Source: Stachybotrys elegans (Eukaryota; Ascomycota; Sordariomycetes; Hypocreales; Stachybotryaceae). From it: a DNA stretch of 64,000 nt. The notes below the pieces were generated by a model that was not told the DNA's origin, made no database searches, and saw nothing but the letters and a program-made list of their open reading frames with translations. This document shows, piece by piece, positions 3,107 to 43,258 of the stretch. Where the stretch lies: the NCBI GenBank assembly GCA_020746835.1, contig JAGPNK010000005.1, positions 1,798,001-1,862,000 on the forward strand, in the 5' to 3' direction. Both the position numbers and the translations under genes were made by a program. Position 1 is the stretch's first letter; the number at the start of each line of letters is the position of its first letter.

Positions 3107-5244
3107 TCATTTCTGACGCCAGTGGTGAGGCACCCAATCACGGAAGGATCCTTCCCTTATCCACTCCATGACTTCAAAGCAAACGCGTCTTTCTGTGCCT
3201 TCGTCGATTCGGCGGTGGCGGAGAACTCTGACTGTGATGAGGCCCAGACGTCGTGAAACCTCCACAGCCCCGAACCTCTGGATCTCCTCCTCGCTGCTCG
3301 GCACAACGTAGATTATAAGGTCTGGGCAGGCCGTGCCACGCCAGAGACTGGCTAGCCATTGCCAGTGTTCAGTTGGCGAGTAGTTGTCCTTGAGAGACAT
3401 GTTGCATGCGAACCGATCGGAGAGCGTCCAGCTGAACCCATCCTTGGCCAGAGCAACAGGCGTCTGCGTAGAAGATGTGGCTCGGTCATTGAAAGTGGTC
3501 ACGTCGAAAGTGTGATGTTGCTCACCAGGCACCGTCTGCACTGGCGCGGCGACACGCCCGCTGAATTGCGTGATATAGTCAAGAATCTGCTTCGATCTTT
3601 CCTGCCAAAGCATAACTGTATTCATGTAAGACGTGATGGAGTAGACTTTGGAAACCCCCGCAAGGTCATGCTGTTGGTGTCGAGGTGCGGGAGCTTGCCC
3701 TTCTGCCTGAGAAGATTCCCAAGTACGCAGCGCCACCTCTCCTGTCGCCAATAGACTTCTCTCAACTGAACTGCCGATGTCGGCCAGCACCATCGCGTCG
3801 AAACCCTCGACAGCAATAAAGGCGCCCCGGGGCCGAGCAGTGAGATTGCCTGGGATGGCCGTCGTAATCGGCTGCGAGGCTTTGGTAAGAGCTCGGAGCT
3901 TGAATGTTGACGGCAGCTCCATAATGATGTCTTCCCAGCTTCTAGCTTCACTTTGCTGTGGGCTGATTATGCCTAGCCCCGTCATAGACATGATGGAACG
4001 TGGGGAAGCGTTTTGGTTTCCCATGGCAGCCGGGACTGAGTTTGCTAGGCTGACCTGGAGAGGAGGAAGCCTCAAAGACTTGTCGAAGCCACCTGGAGTG
4101 GTGGCATCACGCTCAGCCCACGGAATGCTCAGATGCGGCCAGGGTAGCGGGCGCATGGGAGAATCTTGTGGACGTGGCAGTGAATTAGGTGTCAGACACT
4201 CTGCCCATGGTCTGATACAGGTTTGGCTGCCATCGGACACAGCGCGGGTCGGCTCGCGGATACCCCCGATTCCATTGTGTGACGCAGGATAGCCGGAAGC
4301 GCGCGGTAGGCAATGATAGGTGTCAGTTCGGCGCCTCTTGGAGTCTAAGTTCAGGGGCTCGGCCGGGTCAGTAGCCCGAACCTTGCGAGGCTGATTGGCA
4401 AACGCTAGAGGTACGTCGACGGAACGCTCATCGCTGGTTCCACGAGGGACTGGTGTACTCATGTTGACGGTTTCGGTAGGGCTCACTTCTCCGGCAGTGC
4501 TATCGATGCCGGAGGTGCCCAAGGGAGTGGCCGGAGTACAGGGAGTGGGCATCATACGCCCTTTGCACTTGGAGCACCTCTCCTGATCATCTGGTGGTGA
4601 GACTCCAGGCTGGCCAGTCTGATTTCGGCTGTTTCGACGAGGTTGATAGCGATATTCGGGGTATTGCAGCTGATGGCGGAGTTTTTCTTCAGCTGCTAGG
4701 GCCTTCCATTTCTCTCTGACCTCCGCATCCTCCTTTCTCCAAGACTGGCCAATGACTTTGGAGATATCTGGGTTGGAGAGATCGGGATACTCCGCAGAGA
4801 CTTGGGCATGATGATGCTGACGATAAAGAATGAAGGCTAGTTTGGCGTTAGTCAACCTCTCATCTCCAGCTGTTTGTGCTCTTCTCACATTCCTGAGGAA
4901 GTGAGATGGATAAAGGACCAAGCACGAAGGGGCTATGATATGCGAGCAGTGTCTTTCAACTTACCATTCCGTGGTCTTGGGATCTTGGGTGCTGGAGTAC
5001 AGAAACATATAAAATCTCGGGGCTCAGCACCGGGGCCATTGATAACATGATGCTCGCCACTCTCACTGTTTGCAGCAAGGGAGTCTTCTTCGCGTGTTCG
5101 AGACGGTAGTGCAAAGTTATTGCCAGGCAGAGTAGCTCGCGGAGCAGTTTCCACACGCTGAGCGTGATGCTCAGAGATATCTTGGGCAGGTGTAGAGATA
5201 GACTTCGCCACGAGTCGAGGCAGTGAGGGAGCAACCTCTGCCAT
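3107..5244 (-). CDS. HMG-box (MATA/Sox-type) transcription factor
   Basis: A 669-residue nuclear DNA-binding protein. Exon 1 is 5244-4965 and exon 2 is 4836-3107. The 128-nt intron (GTAAGT, ACTAACG, ACTAG) sits inside the HMG box, and splicing rebuilds the typical PRPRNAFILYRQ start. The box covers about residues 85-160, with the helix signatures NPDISKVIGQSWR and REKWKALAAEEK. It resembles the MATA_HMG class found in fungal mating-type and sexual-development regulators. A CxxC pair (CSKCKGRMM) follows the box. The C-terminal 90 residues (from WQWLASLWRGT) look folded and conserved, while the middle is Pro/Ser-rich and probably disordered. It is not at a recognisable MAT locus in this window. 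Role in mating or development is inference from the family; the exact paralogue is unknown. Confidence 0.85.
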
Positions 5245-6613: not shown

Positions 6614-8928
<2,315 letters not shown>

Positions 8929-13452: not shown

Positions 13453-14265
13453 TCAAGCCTTTCCCTTGCCCTTCTTGTCCTTCTTCTTCTTGCCGCCCTC
13501 CTCGGGCGCCATACCGCCCGCCGCTCCGCCCATCAGCGCAGCCATGGGGTCCCCCCCGCCCTGCATCTCCTTCATCATGTCCTTGAAGAGGTTTTCGGAG
13601 ACGCCGCCGCCCGTCATGGCCGGGCTCAGGTAGGGCAGCAGCTCGCCCATCTTCCAGCCGCGGGGCACGGCGGGGCGCGGGTACGGCTTGCCCTCCTCGG
13701 GCTGGAGCTGGCCGCCCATGCGGACGCGCAGGCCCATGCTGTTCTCCGTCGTGGGGTTCTGCTGCAGGTGCTTGGCGACGAGGACGTACAGGTGGTGCTT
13801 GTTGTGGATGGTGACGGCGGGCGTGTTGGTCTTGCGCAGGCCGACCTTGACGCGGCCCGGGTTCGCCCAGTCCTTGGGGTGGTACTTTTCCGGCTCGAAC
13901 AGCGTGGGCAGGCGCAGCCGCGAGCAGGCCGTCGCAATCTCCCGAGCGAGCGGGTTGTGCACGGCGAGCGAGGCGCTCACGCGGCGGCCCTCGGCGCGGG
14001 ACCGCGAGGCGTCGAAGTAGACGGGGTACAGGCACTGGAAGTCTGCGTAGGCGGACTGGTCGGCCGACGCGGGGATGACGTTCGAGGCTGGTATTCCGGG
14101 CATCATGGGCATCGGCTGCTGCTGCGCTGCGGACGGGCGAGGAGCTGCCGTCTGGTCGGGGACTCTGCGGATGATTTCGGTGTCGTCAAAGTCGTCGAGG
14201 TCCACCTCCTCGGGGTCCGAGGCTATGTCGCTGTCCGACACTTCTTCTACTTGGGCGCGAGACAT
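13453..14265 (-). CDS. sec65: Signal recognition particle subunit SRP19 (Sec65)
   Basis: SRP19-family protein that binds SRP RNA so that the SRP54 subunit can join, needed for co-translational targeting to the endoplasmic reticulum. Single exon, 270 residues. An acidic N-terminus (DPEEVDLDDFDD) is followed by a Pro/Met/Gln-rich linker. The SRP19 fold follows at about residues 78-170: FQCLYPVYFDASRS, then NPLAREIATACSRL, then PGRVKVGL. The C-terminus is Gly-rich and ends in a lysine tail (KKKKDKKGKGK), a feature of fungal Sec65 that suits RNA contact. The ATG at 14265 gives the expected acidic start and nothing upstream extends it convincingly. Confidence 0.93.
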   Translation of the reverse strand: MSRAQVEEVSDSDIASDPEEVDLDDFDDTEIIRRVPDQTAAPRPSAAQQQPMPMMPGIPASNVIPASADQSAYADFQCLYPVYFDASRSRAEGRRVSASLAVHNPLAREIATACSRLRLPTLFEPEKYHPKDWANPGRVKVGLRKTNTPAVTIHNKHHLYVLVAKHLQQNPTTENSMGLRVRMGGQLQPEEGKPYPRPAVPRGWKMGELLPYLSPAMTGGGVSENLFKDMMKEMQGGGDPMAALMGGAAGGMAPEEGGKKKKDKKGKGKA

Positions 14266-16773: not shown

Positions 16774-17885
16774 GTTGCAGAAGCACCTTCACTGGGCCAA
16801 GATGGAGATGGGGGCCTGGCGGCAAAAGCAGATATGTCTGGCTGAGTGAATCTCGGTCAGGAGAGCGTTCTAGGCCAGCCCCAGGATCGGCGCAGTCGGT
16901 CTGGCCGTGTCGATCGATGGCGAGAGCGTGAGCTGAGGCGTCCAAGATGCTCTTCCTGGCTGACGGGTTGGCAGATTGGCGGTGGTTTAACAAGACGGAA
17001 GTCGCCAGCTTTTGATCCCCTTGAGCATGGAAGATGCTCCAGACTTATGTTTCCCCTTGCCCTTGTAGCTGGCTGCTCAGATGAGTAGGTAGGCCGGCTT
17101 TTGTGAAATTTCTTTCCCAGGTTGTACTGATTAAAAACAGCAACTCGCAGCTGTACGCACCCGAGCTTGTGAGCCTAACGAGGGCGCGTGCCCCACTAAT
17201 ATTTTCATGAACACAACCTGGGAATGGCAGGCGGGAACCATCTACCCCGAGTAGGTTGCACCAATTAAGGTAGCGCAGCTGCCACGGTGGCTGCTCACGG
17301 GGTCCTACCTCTACCAAACTTCCATACGGATATCATGTACCTTATTGCCGCGCGCTCCCAGAGAGACCCCAAGGGACAGGACCCAAAGGGACCCAAAAGG
17401 TGGCCAGTGGAGCAAACGGGCGGCAACATGGACGGCGCTAAAAGAGTGCTGGTTTTAGTACTCTAGTTGGCTGTCATTAAGTACTACTACTATCATAGGT
17501 AATTCTCGGCGAGGTCCTCGAATTACCAGATTCAATAACCGCCCTCATCAGTCAAAAGAGGTCAGATCACTTTCTGGTCACCCATCCCCGCCCATCTGGT
17601 CATCTCCCCTCCCTTTCCCTACCTAGCCCCATGTAACGCAAACTTGTCCTTGTTTGGCTCCCGTAATAGGACCTTACCCGTCTGGTCTGGTCTCTGGCGG
17701 CACGCCGCAGTGGCTGTTTCAGAGATACCGGACATGACGTGAAGTCGCCTTTTATCTGGATCTGCGTCAACCGGCACCAGACAACCTGGGCTATAGCTTG
17801 GGCGTATGTATAGAGGATTAAATGCTCAAAGGCACATCAAAAGAAGAAGAAAAAAAAGAAAAGAAAAAAAAGGGAGGTAAAAAAT
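16774..17885. other. Intergenic region upstream of the CCCH gene
   Basis: About 1.1 kb with no convincing ORF. The right end carries A-rich tracts (17838-17884), which on the minus strand are T runs directly downstream of the first tRNA-Ser gene and should act as the Pol III terminator. Confidence 0.45.
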
Positions 17886-18048
17886 CGACGGAAACGTGAT
17901 TCGAACACGCGCGGGCGAACCCAATGCCTGGCTTGTAAACCAATTACTTGGTTGGTAGCAGGGCATCGCCTTGGACATGTTAGTTCGTGTTTGATAAGAT
18001 CAACTGCGGGCAGATGGAGACTAACCTTAACCACTCGGCCATCCCGTC
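17886..18048 (-). tRNA. tRNA-Ser(GCU) copy 1, with two introns
   Basis: Serine tRNA read on the minus strand. The 7-bp acceptor stem pairs GACGGGA with TTCCGTC (one G-T pair), with discriminator G. The A box TGGCCGAGTGG and B-box core GTTCGAATC are intact, and a class II variable arm is present. The anticodon stem ATGCC/GGCAT holds the loop CTGCTAA with anticodon GCT (17959-17957). Two interruptions are needed to fold it. The first is a 26-nt intron after A37 (17955-17930), the normal eukaryotic tRNA intron position. The second is 56 nt in the D arm (18025-17970), starting GTTAGT, with ACTAAC near the end and AAG as last bases. Removing both leaves 81 nt. The transcript end is followed within 2 nt by six T residues, a Pol III terminator. 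See findings for the D-arm intron. Confidence 0.88.
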
Positions 18049-18984
18049 TGATGAGTTATTTAGGCGAATGCAAATACAATATTAGTATCTCGCAAACATT
18101 TCAGGGAGATCTAACTTTGTAATGATCAACCAGGCAGCATACCAACCAAGTGTGATGATAGGGGGGATAATAGTACAGGCGCTCATTGAGAGACATGGTA
18201 ATCGGCAGGAAGAACGGTCTTGCGTGGGAGGCAAGCCGGGTTCTTATATTATAGGTATGGCGGCCTAAGCTCTCTCCTGACCCCAAGTTCCTGAACGGCG
18301 CCTTTGTTCGACTCCATCTCGCCTGCAGATGAAGGAAGTAAAGGCCGTTCGTGTTACGTACTGGTTGTTCGGCCATCGCAGAGCTTGTTTGTTTCCAAGT
18401 CTGAGGCGCGTGCAGCAGGATGGTCGGGGGCCTGTACCGTAAACGAAGCAAGAGGAAGGAAAACTATTTACACAGTAACACCCATACGTACATCAAGGAC
18501 AGGAAGCGTGGACGGGCGAGAGCAAAGCCGACTGATCCCCTAGCAGCATTTGAAGGCGGAGCACAAATACCTGTACGTCGAGTAGACTGCCTGGCAGCTG
18601 GCGGCCCCGGTTTGTCAATACACACGCAAACATGCATGTTCCGCAGCTGTCATGCATTGACCAAGATTTTGAAAACAGGTATATAACTTTCTCTTCCCTC
18701 CCCAACCACTTCATCCTACCTACACACATGACTATTGCATCGACCATCGTCACGAGATGCCTAGTCTTGAACCCTCGTGCTGCTGGAGACAACTTCAGCC
18801 ATCACCAAACACCAGTTCGAGACTTCAGCATTTCCACCACGCCACCAAAGCATGATGCAGATGAGTAGTTTGCTCTTGGATCTGTCACTAAACAGGTAAG
18901 ACCTCGCGAATTCCCCGACTGGCAACGGAATGCCTTAGCTTACAGTCCTCGGAGGAGAGCGCATCTCATAGACAGCGAGGCCTC
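18049..18984. other. Intergenic region upstream of tRNA-Ser copy 1
   Basis: Only short ORFs in scattered frames. No homology I can recognise, no RNA fold of note and no long repeat. Confidence 0.35.
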
Positions 18985-19735
18985 AGCAGATTGACAGGAA
19001 GCTCGACGACTCTCGAAAGCCCTTCTCGTGCGTTGCGGCAACATTGACCGCGTCGCTCGCCAAAGCCTTCTCCAGCTTAGGCTCCTTCTCAGACGCCCAG
19101 CTCCATGATGCCATCTTCACAAAAGTTTCCGCCCAGTTGCGGTGGCTGGGAAAATTTTAGTTTTCTTGCCAAGTGTCGTATATTGGCTCGATATCGTCTT
19201 TATCGTCAGAGTGAGCCTCCTCGAAGTCGCTGGTCTGCATCCCATGGGGCACGCGGTCGGGCGATATCGAGAAAGATCGCCTTGCAGACCCAAACCGGTC
19301 CGCCTACAGCAGCGTCATCACAACTTTGGGTGGCAAAGAAGGCTGTGCAAACAGACTTATTAGCGACGTTGATGCTATAACCCGTCAAGCTCTTGAGCAA
19401 GTCCAGTGCAGTCAAACGGCACAGTGACTTGGAAGCGTGGGCTATTTGGATTTCGTCACCGATGACCGGTCCCAAGAATACTATCGCACATACGTTGGGC
19501 AGACATCTGATCCCCGCTCCAGAATGATGCGAGGCCACGCTGAATGCATCATTCGAGGAGACACGGTGTCTCTCCATTATTTCATCATTTGGCTCGGCAA
19601 CGGACACAGAACAGCCAATTTCCTGAGGCTTTGGGCGTTCCTCCCGAGGAAATGACGGGTACAGGGATAGACTGCCAACTCATTGCCAGTCTGCTCGAAG
19701 CACTTTTCGTTCGAGTATTTAGATAGGATCATGGT
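18985..19735 (+). pseudogene. Degraded gene with a GIY-YIG-like segment
   Basis: A coding-looking stretch on the plus strand with at least two stops and shifts of frame. From about 19010 the reading VAATLTASLAKAFSSLGSFS is followed by a stop near 19158. From about 19265 the frame reading IEKDRLADPNRSAYSS continues to a TGA near 19422. It then goes on as YRTYVGQTSDPRSRM and LHYFIIWLGNGHRTANFLRL. YVGQT with a downstream Arg resembles the second half of a GIY-YIG nuclease core, as seen in some fungal hypothetical proteins, but the first motif is not clear. I take it as a non-functional remnant; it may be the 5' part of the same relic as the helicase fragments just downstream. Confidence 0.5.
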
Positions 19736-19949
19736 GCTTTGGCGACGTCAGAGGTAACAGCCAGTGGGAATGATCGAGATGGTGGCTACAACCTCAACAT
19801 CGTCCCCCCACTTCTCTAAAGTTCCTATCTCACGCAGCCCAGGCACAAGGGCTCGTTCAGTCAAAGCAGTATTACGCTCGCCTGATCCTCAAATCATGGG
19901 TTGGGAGTAATTTTGGGCCAACTCTCTAGTTCTGACTCTTAGCGATACC

Positions 19950-21300
19950 CGCCCCTTGTGGCCCCTCAGCGTCTTTGACGGACAGGGCGAACATCGAGGA
20001 GGCCAAGATCACCAGCTTGAGGGACTTCGTCGCGCCCAGCGCCACGACAACCACCAGAGAAGAAATCGGCACAGAGAGACAGTTGCCAGGCCCCGATCCC
20101 TTCGACTATATCGCCTGCACTCTCAGCGAAATAGCAGAAAGACTGGCCCGACAACAGACAGGGGGGAGAAAGCCCTGTACAACGCGGCTGAAGACAACAG
20201 TGTCAAGACGAAGACACATGACTGCTTGAGCATGCATCCGGCAATCGACGTAGCTCTACCTACCTCTCTTCGAGTCAAAGGTGTGATATGGGAGATGAGG
20301 GCCTCGAGTCTTGGGACGATGCCAGGACAATGTCGCCAAATGGTTCCACGACACCATGTTCGACCTCAATCAAGATGTCCGGTAGCTGAGTGAGGAAGAG
20401 GCTCGGCGTGTCACACCCGATGGCAACTTCGCAAAGTACTCGATTAGGCATACAATTTGGAGAGATTGTAAATTCCAGCATCTCATTGTTGACGAAGCGC
20501 ATGCAGCTCGACGACCCAACGGCACCTATGCGCACATCTGCTAGCCGGCCGTTGCTGTCCCGCCTCTAGGCAGCCTGTCTGCCTCGGTTGGGTTTGTTCT
20601 AGACTTTGCTACAGCAGCGGAGAGATGTCCCAGAACTGCCCTGGTCGTTGCAAAGATCAGGATTTAACCAGGCAAATTCGCTCGTTTGGACGCACAACTT
20701 CATGGAGTATGCGATTCTCAGCCCTAGCAACATATCCGCATCTACTGGCAACTCCGCTGTACTGGATGTACACCGTTCACTTGTCCGCTCAAGCGCCGCT
20801 TAGGTCATACTGTTGAAATCGAGGGGATAGGCACCAATAGCCTGCACTATCAGTGTTGGCGTACACTTTTGGTGTAGCTGCCAAATTCACTACATACTTC
20901 TCTGCGGAGCTCGGTCTTGGGAGGTCGTGACGGCGCGGGTAACCTAGCATACCGGCCAGGCGAAGAGGACTCTGGAGCTGCGTGCCGGACCCAACTTCAG
21001 ATTTCTGATTTCACAAGACGGCGGAGTCAATCCTCTTTGCTCTCTTGACAATCCTCGGGTGCCACGTTAATACAGTACGAGCATCAGACGAGCCTAGGGA
21101 GAAGCAAAGGGAGATCGACGAGTTTGCAAACCCTGACTCGCCCAATCAAGTATTCATCGGAAACATCAATGTCCTGGCCACAGGTGTTAACTTACACCCC
21201 TGTTGCAGCAAGGGAATTTTGATGAACTTTCATCGCAACACCAAGATTGTTCTCCAGGTTCACTGCAGACGCCATCGCATTGGATAGAAGAAGAGTGTTG
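19950..21300 (+). pseudogene. SNF2-type helicase relic
   Basis: Fragments of an SNF2/RAD54-type ATPase on the plus strand. Near 20160-20350 readable pieces change frame at least twice. From about 20395 a clean stretch gives YSIRHTIWRDCKFQHL and the motif II box VDEAHAARRPNGTY, then a TAG stop. After a gap of broken sequence, about 21045-21287 reads EIDEFANPDSPNQVFIGN, NVLATGVNLHPCCS and QVHCRRHRIG, which correspond to helicase motifs V and VI, with the expected arginine-rich end. Walker A was not found. The pieces are in the right order but cannot be joined into one frame with believable introns, so the gene is dead. Confidence 0.68.
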
Positions 21301-21827
21301 TGCGGCACAATCTCCACGTCCAGAACAGCTTTCACGATTACCAGCACCATGCCGCCCCGGATCTATATACAGTGTCCGGAGCTCCCCTATGACCCATGCT
21401 CAATCAAGCTTCCCCTGCTCCCCCGGCGAAAATCCCCCAAGGAACCCTCGGCTTATATCACAAGTGCATCCGTAGGTGCGCCATCTTCTAAGCCAGCCTG
21501 GCCACCAAGCTCAGCCGATTGGGCCGACATGGAGTCGGAGAAGCAGAAGAAGAGGAGCAACCAGCAGCCCTCAGCTTCCGATCCAGCCTCTTCACAGGTT
21601 GATGACGTTGAAGCAGACGATCAATCTAGAGTGGGCCGCCGGGATCGACTAGCACGGCGTATGGTCTTTCGAATAACGGGTCGGACACACGACGAAAAGC
21701 TTGGTAAAGGCCACCGCCCAAGCTAACACGTTGGCCGATAAGCTGCTGCTTGGAGCAAAAAAAAAAATCCTCTACCAAACACCGGAGCTGGGTAGATCCT
21801 TCTTCGAAGGAAGGAAGCAAAAGAGAA
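21301..21827. other. Region between the helicase relic and tRNA-Ser copy 2
   Basis: An ORF of 125 codons (21352-21726, plus) starts MPPRIYIQCPELPYDP and is rich in Pro, Ser, Lys and Arg, with no recognised domain. It could be the tail of the helicase relic or chance. A run of A bases lies near 21757-21767. Confidence 0.35.
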
Positions 21828-21990
21828 CGACGGAAACGTGATTCGAACACGCGCGGGCGAACCCAATGCCTCGCTTAGCTAGAACCAATTGCTCGGTTGA
21901 TAGCAGGGCATCGCCTTGAGGATATTAGTACAGGAAGTTATGCAACTGTTGACGAATGGTGACTTACCTTAACCACTCGGCCATCCCGCC
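21828..21990 (-). tRNA. tRNA-Ser(GCU) copy 2, with two introns
   Basis: Same tRNA as copy 1. The exons differ at one base only: the second base is G, so the acceptor stem begins GGCGGGA and forms a G-T pair. The D-arm interruption (21967-21915, 53 nt) starts with the consensus splice donor GTAAGT, has TACTAAT before the end, and ends CTCAAG. The anticodon-loop intron (21900-21872) is 29 nt. Removing both leaves 81 nt. A TTTT run about 7 nt beyond the 3' end can end Pol III transcription. Confidence 0.87.
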
Positions 21991-22073
21991 TTGTTGTTCC
22001 GAGAGAAGAGTTGGATTATAGCGGAGAAGCAAATCAGCAAAAGAGAGAAAAAGAGAAGACCAAAAAAAGAGAT

Positions 22074-22228
22074 CGACGGAAACGTGATTCGAACACGCGC
22101 GGGCGAACCCAATGCCTAGCTTGGAGAAGCAAGTTGCTCAGTAGCAGGGCATCGCCTTGTACATGTTAGTATGAAGTTGTTAACTGATGGGAATTGGAGA
22201 CCAACCTTAACCACTCGGCCATCCCGTC
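22074..22228 (-). tRNA. tRNA-Ser(GCU) copy 3, with two introns
   Basis: Exons are identical to copy 1. The D-arm interruption (22205-22156, 50 nt) starts GTTGGT, has TACTAAC near its end, and finishes TACAAG. The anticodon-loop intron (22141-22118) is 24 nt. Removing both leaves 81 nt. A T7 run follows about 8 nt after the discriminator base. Copies 2 and 3 are in the same direction, 83 bp apart. Confidence 0.88.
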
Positions 22229-23047
22229 TTATTGCCAAAAGAGGACTTAGATCATCATAGAGCCAGTGCGTAGAGTGACGAACGAGTGTGGGGAACAATG
22301 ATACTGCCCTTGCCCATAGGACTAAAAACAGTATCAGACAATAAAGGGATTGTCAGAGCCAGAGAATAATAAGATGGCAGCGGCAGCGGCATGCAATAAG
22401 TAGACTGTCCTCTCGGTATGTCCGTGCTGGAAGAGTTGGATTGGGTTGTGACATCAGTTATATCGCAGCTGATTACATGCTCATAACAGTGAGGCATCGT
22501 TACCCTACACTATCCGCCACAGAGGGACCCGAGATACAGCATGTCTCGTGGTGTAATGCATTATCCCACGTGAAAACACGGCCTCAACTTGAATGATAAC
22601 TCTTGGTAGATACTCAACGTTGTTGCGCAACGCTACCCAGTCTCGTCTACCATCAAGAACCCGACACTACGGCAGAATCATCTTTGCGTATAGTCTCGAC
22701 AATGCGAGCATAGCCAATATCCCCTCCGCTGCATCCTCTTCACCTGTGTATATCCTACTTAAGGCTGAGCTGGATCGCTCAACTCTCACCCTTAGCCGAT
22801 TGCACGCAGGCCATCTGATTGTATGCACTTCTGTTTTTATTGGAACCGCGGGGGCACGGCTATTGAGACTACTCTGCCTCGCCCTTCACAGACATTATTC
22901 TCGGTCGCTAGAGTATAGCCACGATTTAATCCATCAAAGTCACTTGGTATCACGCCTTGGGACTTGGCATCATCCCTCAGGTTGGCCCGTCTTTACCGTT
23001 CATCATGGCATGTTGACGATACATAGGCGGAAGTGTACTGCTCTGCT
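22229..23047. other. Intergenic region between tRNA copy 3 and the Zn2Cys6 gene
   Basis: Contains the 3' UTR of the zinc-cluster gene on the right. A 206-codon ORF on the plus strand (22593-23213) overlaps that gene antisense and has no recognisable domain; I do not count it as a gene. Confidence 0.4.

Positions 23048-40304: not shown

Positions 40305-43258
<2,954 letters not shown>

Follow-up and report, generated by a model that had tools for sequence, protein, structure and literature searches.

The window analyzed here, a 64,000-nucleotide (nt) stretch of the Stachybotrys elegans genome, carries three copies of a gene for a serine transfer RNA (tRNA) with anticodon GCU, tRNA-Ser(GCU), all on the minus strand and each interrupted by two introns (Table 1). 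The exon layout is common to all three copies, with 23 nt in the 5' exon, 14 nt in the middle exon, where the anticodon lies, and 44 nt in the 3' exon. Judged by eye against the A-box and B-box consensus sequences, both boxes are intact within the exons. One intron of each gene lies in the anticodon loop, and the other lies in the D arm. A preliminary description of this DNA had given the coordinates, boundary sequences, and lengths of both sets of introns, an 81-nt product for every copy, a one-base difference among the exons, and a T run after each gene. All of these were borne out on rereading, the T run being 6 nt long after copy 1, 4 nt (weak) after copy 2, and 7 nt after copy 3.

Once both introns are taken out, 81 nt remain in three of three copies, and the predicted product is a normal serine tRNA. 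The single variable position among the 81 is base 2, which is A in copies 1 and 3 and G in copy 2 and which pairs with U71 either way. Four other serine tRNAs of this genome (Ser-AGA, Ser-UGA, and two Ser-CGA), each likewise 81 nt long, align with the spliced sequences without gaps, and the spliced sequences have the long variable arm of a serine tRNA (class II, anticodon GCU). Each of the 23 cloverleaf pairs is kept; across six sequences (both Ser-GCU variants and the four other Ser tRNAs), this amounts to 138 of 138 cells, and 16 of the 23 pairs show changes on both sides. By their position (37/38), the anticodon-loop introns are canonical tRNA introns of the SEN type, and in three of three copies the triplet AGC, the complement of the anticodon GCT, stands at -4 of the intron. 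The D-arm intron is without counterpart in all eight other Ser genes that were read (five AGA, two CGA, and one UGA).

Table 1. Coordinates in the window of the three tRNA-Ser(GCU) genes, their exons, introns, and candidate signals, and of one comparator intron
Feature	Position	Strand	Length	Remarks
tRNA-Ser(GCU) copy 1	17886..18048	-	163 nt	two introns
Copy 1 5' exon	18026..18048	-		A box, D-arm 5' side
Copy 1 D-arm intron	17970..18025	-	56 nt	GTTAGT...ACTAAC...CAAG; proposed spliceosomal type; top of 21 GT-AG candidates
Copy 1 candidate branch site	17979..17984	-		ACTAAC; branch A to acceptor, 10 nt
Copy 1 middle exon	17956..17969	-	14 nt	holds anticodon GCT
Copy 1 anticodon-loop intron	17930..17955	-	26 nt	canonical 37/38 position; AGC complementary to anticodon
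Copy 1 3' exon	17886..17929	-		variable arm, B box, acceptor
Copy 1 downstream T6 run	17879..17884	-		candidate Pol III terminator
tRNA-Ser(GCU) copy 2	21828..21990	-	163 nt	two introns
Copy 2 5' exon	21968..21990	-		G2 in place of A2
Copy 2 D-arm intron	21915..21967	-	53 nt	GTAAGT...ACTAAT...CAAG; top of 31 GT-AG candidates
Copy 2 candidate branch site	21924..21929	-		ACTAAT
Copy 2 middle exon	21901..21914	-		anticodon GCT
Copy 2 anticodon-loop intron	21872..21900	-	29 nt	
Copy 2 3' exon	21828..21871	-		
Copy 2 downstream T4 run	21819..21822	-		weak
tRNA-Ser(GCU) copy 3	22074..22228	-	155 nt	two introns
Copy 3 5' exon	22206..22228	-		
Copy 3 D-arm intron	22156..22205	-	50 nt	GTTGGT...ACTAAC...CAAG; top of 20 GT-AG candidates
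Copy 3 candidate branch site	22165..22170	-		ACTAAC
Copy 3 middle exon	22142..22155	-		anticodon GCT
Copy 3 anticodon-loop intron	22118..22141	-	24 nt	
Copy 3 3' exon	22074..22117	-		
Copy 3 downstream T7 run	22062..22068	-		
rvb1 last intron (comparator)	6747..6808	-		GTGAGT...ACTAAC...TTCAAG; same AAG acceptor

We compared the D-arm introns with a profile of host messenger RNA (mRNA) introns. Its training set, assembled iteratively, consisted of 91 introns that coding potential predicted in 319 kb of this genome (39 sources). Some of them are probably false, and the set does not contain the D-arm introns or the U6 intron described below. A strict setting (T = 18; 91, 89, and 87 introns in three versions of the profile) was kept, and a loose one (T = 14; 432, 434, and 449 introns) was given up because of its noise; two earlier intron finders, one with 24 raw candidates and the other with 76 raw candidates of which 23 were kept, some with misplaced acceptors, had been replaced. 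Under all three versions, no other GT-AG candidate in a gene scores as high as its D-arm segment (Table 1), whose score falls at the 59th, 70th, and 29th percentiles of the 91 mRNA introns for copies 1, 2, and 3, respectively. When the letters of the intron were shuffled with the ends fixed, the real score was reached in 0 of 20,000 shuffles per copy. In a test that accepted the best intron anywhere in the shuffled gene (400 shuffles per gene), the corresponding values were 0.0025, 0.005, and 0.055.

The individual signals agree with those of host mRNA introns. Of the 91 host introns, 3 have the donor GTTAGT, 10 have GTAAGT, and 1 has GTTGGT; the branch sequence is CTAAC in 25 and CTAAT in 6. 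The distance from branch site to acceptor is 10 nt in the D-arm introns and 10 nt or less in 21 of 91 mRNA introns, and the intron length of 50 to 56 nt has its equivalent in the 32 of 91 mRNA introns that measure 48 to 58 nt; the AG of CAAG is the first one downstream of the branch site. Donor, branch distance, acceptor (the first AG, of a kind that the host tolerates), and length are those of U2-type introns. The D-arm introns also fit the 5' end of the host's own U1 and the sequence by which its U2 recognizes the branch site; in copies 1 and 3, one position of the donor is unpaired to U1. The proposal in the preliminary description that the spliceosome removes the D-arm intron thus gains support, since donor, branch site, acceptor, length, and distance all lie within the host mRNA range and U1 and U2 fit.

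Two mRNA introns of the window that had been cited as parallels could also be located. The last intron of rvb1 does end in TTCAAG: the peptide spliced over it is gap-free at the junction when aligned with a solved RuvB-like 1, and the RVB1 of the window is close to the RVB1 in 4wvy and 5fm6, which we take to be from Chaetomium thermophilum. The GTTAGT donor reported for glr1 begins a predicted intron (41566-41626, minus strand) that adjoins a glutathione-reductase-like peptide, presumably the product of a gene of that name. At the D-arm junctions of the tRNA genes, a direct repeat of 4 nt, AAGG, allows several equivalent registers and suggests that the target site supplied the acceptor AG at the time of intron gain. 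The donor of copy 1, GTTAGT, is the exact complement of its branch site, ACTAAC, with a partial match in copies 2 and 3; we treat this complementarity as a by-product of two consensus sequences.

Conservation among the copies follows the proposed boundaries. Invariant columns make up 80 of 81 in the exons versus 28 of 58 in the D-arm intron (p = 3e-13), and the 14-nt middle exon, which lies between two drifting introns, is invariant in 14 of 14 columns (p = 2e-4). Within the D-arm intron, the consensus of mRNA introns defines nine signal columns (donor +1, +2, +5, and +6; the C, T, and A of CTNA; and the AG), and all 9 are invariant compared with 19 of the 49 others (Fisher p = 0.0006). The introns had been described as diverged, and this holds in part: pairwise identity among the copies is 59 to 76%, but the D-arm introns share 28 of 58 identical columns. 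These include two interior blocks, CCA and CAGTT, which are identical in all copies and are not splice signals.

The host genome also provides evidence on the splicing machinery itself. The sole match to U6 small nuclear RNA (snRNA) in the genome lies at locus L046 (G000:C1:4175725-4175821 plus about 120 nt upstream, minus strand); 47 of 2485 candidates were scored in one scan, and a second search also gave one match. This gene reads ...ACGATA/GTAAGT...GCTAAC...TACAG/CAGAGAAGATTAGC... and contains an mRNA-type intron of 71 nt that directly precedes CAGAGA in the ACAGAGA box. The score of the U6 intron is at the 92nd percentile of host mRNA introns, and within it lies a sequence, GTTCGAAT, that resembles the B-box consensus. 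With an mRNA-type intron in the only U6 gene found, a transcript of RNA polymerase III (Pol III) is very likely spliced in this fungus already. Among the other spliceosomal RNAs, a U2 candidate contains GTAGTA, and the two U1 candidates have the 5' end ATACTTACC, both as expected; the U1 candidates score below the Rfam gathering cutoff (47.7 and 40.3 versus 69.5).

Automated tools do not report these genes as they are. Default ARAGORN and Rfam, run on 10 kb, called none of the three. ARAGORN with introns allowed found all three at their exact ends, labeled Ile(AAU), Thr(GGU), and Ala(UGC) with single introns of 71, 71, and 65 nt, labels that we reject for the reason given below. An unfiltered Ser covariance model applied to the unspliced region returned only gene halves.

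The preliminary description had pointed to an intact Ser-GCU gene elsewhere in the genome as the observation that would speak for pseudogenes at this locus. We looked for such a gene in five ways in the whole assembly (G000; 43.4 Mb in 61 contigs) and did not find one. A 35-nt pattern for the 3' end, with up to 3 mismatches, matched exactly the three loci and no further 3'-end copy, and a 24-nt 5' pattern matched the three loci and five Ser-AGA genes. BLAST of the spliced tRNA gave six matches at three places, all of them fragments of these genes; this test is weak by itself, as it missed the related Ser-AGA genes, and the pattern searches carry the weight. A pattern joining the D arm to the anticodon, as in an uninterrupted Ser-GCU gene, had no match in the genome, nor did a form in which the anticodon stem was left free. 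As a positive control, the free-stem form for AGA recovered seven of the eight other Ser genes read and missed one Ser-CGA gene. A 21-nt Ser-type pattern for D-arm introns elsewhere (up to 3 mismatches) matched only these three genes. Scans for the intron pattern in two further sets, genome_contigs and viral_contigs, had 0 matches, but as those sets hold prokaryotic and viral DNA, the result has no bearing on fungi. The inventory of tRNA genes covers 63 of 992 candidates, those that were scored, and a strongly diverged Ser-GCU gene, or one in an assembly gap, may exist. As far as can be read from the assembly, these copies are the only decoder found for the serine codons AGC and AGU in this fungus.

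The three genes share the window with an HMG-box protein gene (3107-4921, minus strand) and an SRP19 gene (13453-14265, minus strand). By eye, the stretch between copies 1 and 2 (19000-21730) resembles a decayed helicase-like gene or mobile element; its last open reading frame (21247-21726) has no Pfam match. A subthreshold Rfam match to the small nucleolar RNA family sR35 (22948-23003, minus strand; 25.8 bits versus a gathering cutoff of 60) is probably due to chance.

We favor the reading, to which we assign a probability of about 0.86, that these are functional nuclear tRNA-Ser(GCU) genes with introns of two kinds, the D-arm intron being removed by the spliceosome and the anticodon intron by the tRNA endonuclease. 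Several observations count against it. The acceptor is AAG, not CAG or TAG, in all three D-arm introns, and AAG is a minority acceptor in the host (11 of 91, 17 of 89, or 4 of 87 introns, depending on the set, some of them probably miscalled), with protein homology backing one case, the last intron of rvb1. Chance introns near 20 ordinary tRNA genes (39 scans) reached a maximum score of 14.3, with a 95th percentile of 12.6. The intron score by itself is not special; the exact position is, in that the best intron is the very piece whose removal makes a tRNA. Copy 3 alone does not reach significance in the best-anywhere shuffles (0.055). The three copies come from one gene and do not represent three independent events, so the column tests show constraint and not independent gains. 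In none of the three copies is the RNAfold minimum-energy fold of the bare spliced 81-mer a cloverleaf, and the cloverleaf assignment therefore rests on comparison, not on energy; with the anticodon intron retained, RNAfold gives a cloverleaf for copies 1 and 3 but not for copy 2. Finally, an assembly in 61 contigs may be incomplete.

The preliminary description had offered the alternative of an ectopic tRNA intron in the D arm that the tRNA endonuclease would cut. The likeness of this segment to a spliceosomal intron would then be coincidental. Noncanonical introns, including some in the D arm, occur in Crenarchaeota, and disrupted tRNA genes occur in Cyanidioschyzon merolae, according to PMC3978253. 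Moreover, the AAGG repeat at the junction would let a cut fall in any of several equivalent registers, copy 1 allows pairing between donor and branch site, and a loose central helix of 3 bp can be drawn in each copy. Against this stands a search for bulge-helix-bulge (BHB) motifs at the D arm, which yielded none, strict or relaxed, in 540 geometries per copy covering all equivalent registers (bulges of 2 to 4, a full central helix of 4 to 5 bp, and at least 4 of 6 flanking pairs; the looser natural forms hBH, BHh', and no H were covered in part). Because this search also misses the canonical anticodon introns, its negative result argues against cutting of the archaeal type but not against every mode of endonuclease action. 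Coincidence is also hard to reconcile with the fixed-position shuffles, which never matched the splice-signal score, and with the fact that the invariant intron columns fall on spliceosomal signals. The copy 1 intron, furthermore, folds no better than its shuffles (z -0.64; 45 of 200 shuffles as good). We consider endonuclease cutting of the D-arm intron unlikely.

Other explanations fare worse. The three genes could be dead copies or tRNA-derived repeats, with the normal Ser-GCU gene missing from the assembly or too diverged to be recognized, and the silence of default ARAGORN and Rfam, the decayed look of the region between copies 1 and 2, and the fragmented assembly would all fit. Yet the relaxed constraint on the mature part that marks pseudogenes is not seen: exons are near-invariant while the introns have drifted, all 23 pairs are kept, and AGC is at -4 of the anticodon intron in every copy. 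In addition, the middle exon, at 14 nt between drifting introns, is too short for gene conversion to be an easy explanation, and the 3' end has no further genomic copy at up to 3 mismatches. These points make dead copies very improbable. That the genes are instead single-intron genes for Ile(AAU), Thr(GGU), and Ala(UGC), as the intron-aware ARAGORN calls would have it, is scarcely credible, as genes alike in 80 of 81 exon columns would then each serve a different amino acid; with two introns, they encode a single tRNA that aligns gap-free with the host Ser tRNAs and has a long, Ser-type variable arm. Equally hard to credit is removal of the D-arm intron by Ire1-type or other unconventional cleavage followed by tRNA ligase. 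Filamentous fungi do splice hacA mRNA in the Ire1 manner, but the AAG/G junctions are, on inspection, unlike the Ire1 loop consensus CNG/CNGN, and this route would leave the branch site unexplained.

If the spliceosome does remove the D-arm intron, expression of these genes might proceed as follows. Pol III would transcribe each gene from the internal A and B boxes and stop at the downstream T run. The spliceosome would cut out the D-arm intron by way of the U1-paired GTNRGT donor, the ACTAAY branch site, and the CAAG acceptor, and the tRNA splicing endonuclease and ligase would excise the anticodon-loop intron. In the mature tRNA, whose anticodon would be GCU, GCGATGCCC... would run on directly into the 3' exon. 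According to PMC4090602 and PMC3978253, the tRNA endonuclease is reported to contact the D arm through Sen54, which suggests that the D-arm intron goes before the anticodon intron. Predicted folds of the unspliced transcripts do not force this order: copy 2 loses its D stem, and copies 1 and 3 keep one with the intron inserted in its loop. The intron may have arisen by a single gain at a proto-splice site, AAG/G, before the gene was triplicated. It is quite probable that an essential tRNA isoacceptor, the only AGC/AGU decoder found, would depend on the spliceosome and then on the tRNA endonuclease for its maturation.

Introns of tRNA and of mRNA are usually taught as separate kinds, each with its own machine. 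If the reading favored here is true, the spliceosome accepts a Pol III transcript besides U6, the supply of one tRNA is tied to splicing capacity, and, given the single, intron-bearing U6 gene, both splicing and serine decoding in this fungus hinge on spliceosomal processing of Pol III transcripts. The genes would also provide a natural test of how the spliceosome recognizes a short, highly structured substrate. For annotation, they mark a blind spot: none of the three is called by default ARAGORN or by Rfam, and intron-aware ARAGORN gives three different wrong labels. Because finders miss or mislabel such genes, similar ones may hide or bear wrong names in other genomes, where a missing Ser-GCU would be the clue.

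In the literature that we surveyed by title and the opening of the abstract, a spliceosomal intron in a tRNA gene had no precedent, and the parts of PMC4090602, PMC8450103, PMC3978253, and PMC11782384 available to us make no mention of one. Within the bounds of this limited survey, tRNA-Ser(GCU) would likely be the first known example of tRNA maturation by the spliceosome. The systems nearest to it each share some of its features. The canonical eukaryotic introns at 37/38 match the anticodon-loop introns described here and do not account for the D-arm intron. Ectopic introns of archaea and C. merolae likewise lie outside the anticodon loop, in the D arm in some archaeal cases; PMC3978253 describes them with a strict or relaxed BHB and the tRNA endonuclease, whereas the D-arm introns of tRNA-Ser(GCU) carry spliceosomal signals and no BHB of the kinds searched. 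Spliceosomal introns in the nuclear ribosomal RNA (rRNA) genes of ascomycetes are also mRNA-type introns in genes that RNA polymerase II does not transcribe, but those genes encode a polymerase I rRNA and not a tRNA. The closest likeness in kind of transcript is the U6 snRNA intron of fission yeast, and of this genome, where a Pol III gene holds a GT-AG intron with donor, CTAAC, and terminal AG. U6, however, is itself a part of the spliceosome, which makes the entry of an intron by reverse splicing readily conceivable, and a tRNA is not; the tRNA-Ser(GCU) genes, moreover, bear a second intron of another kind.

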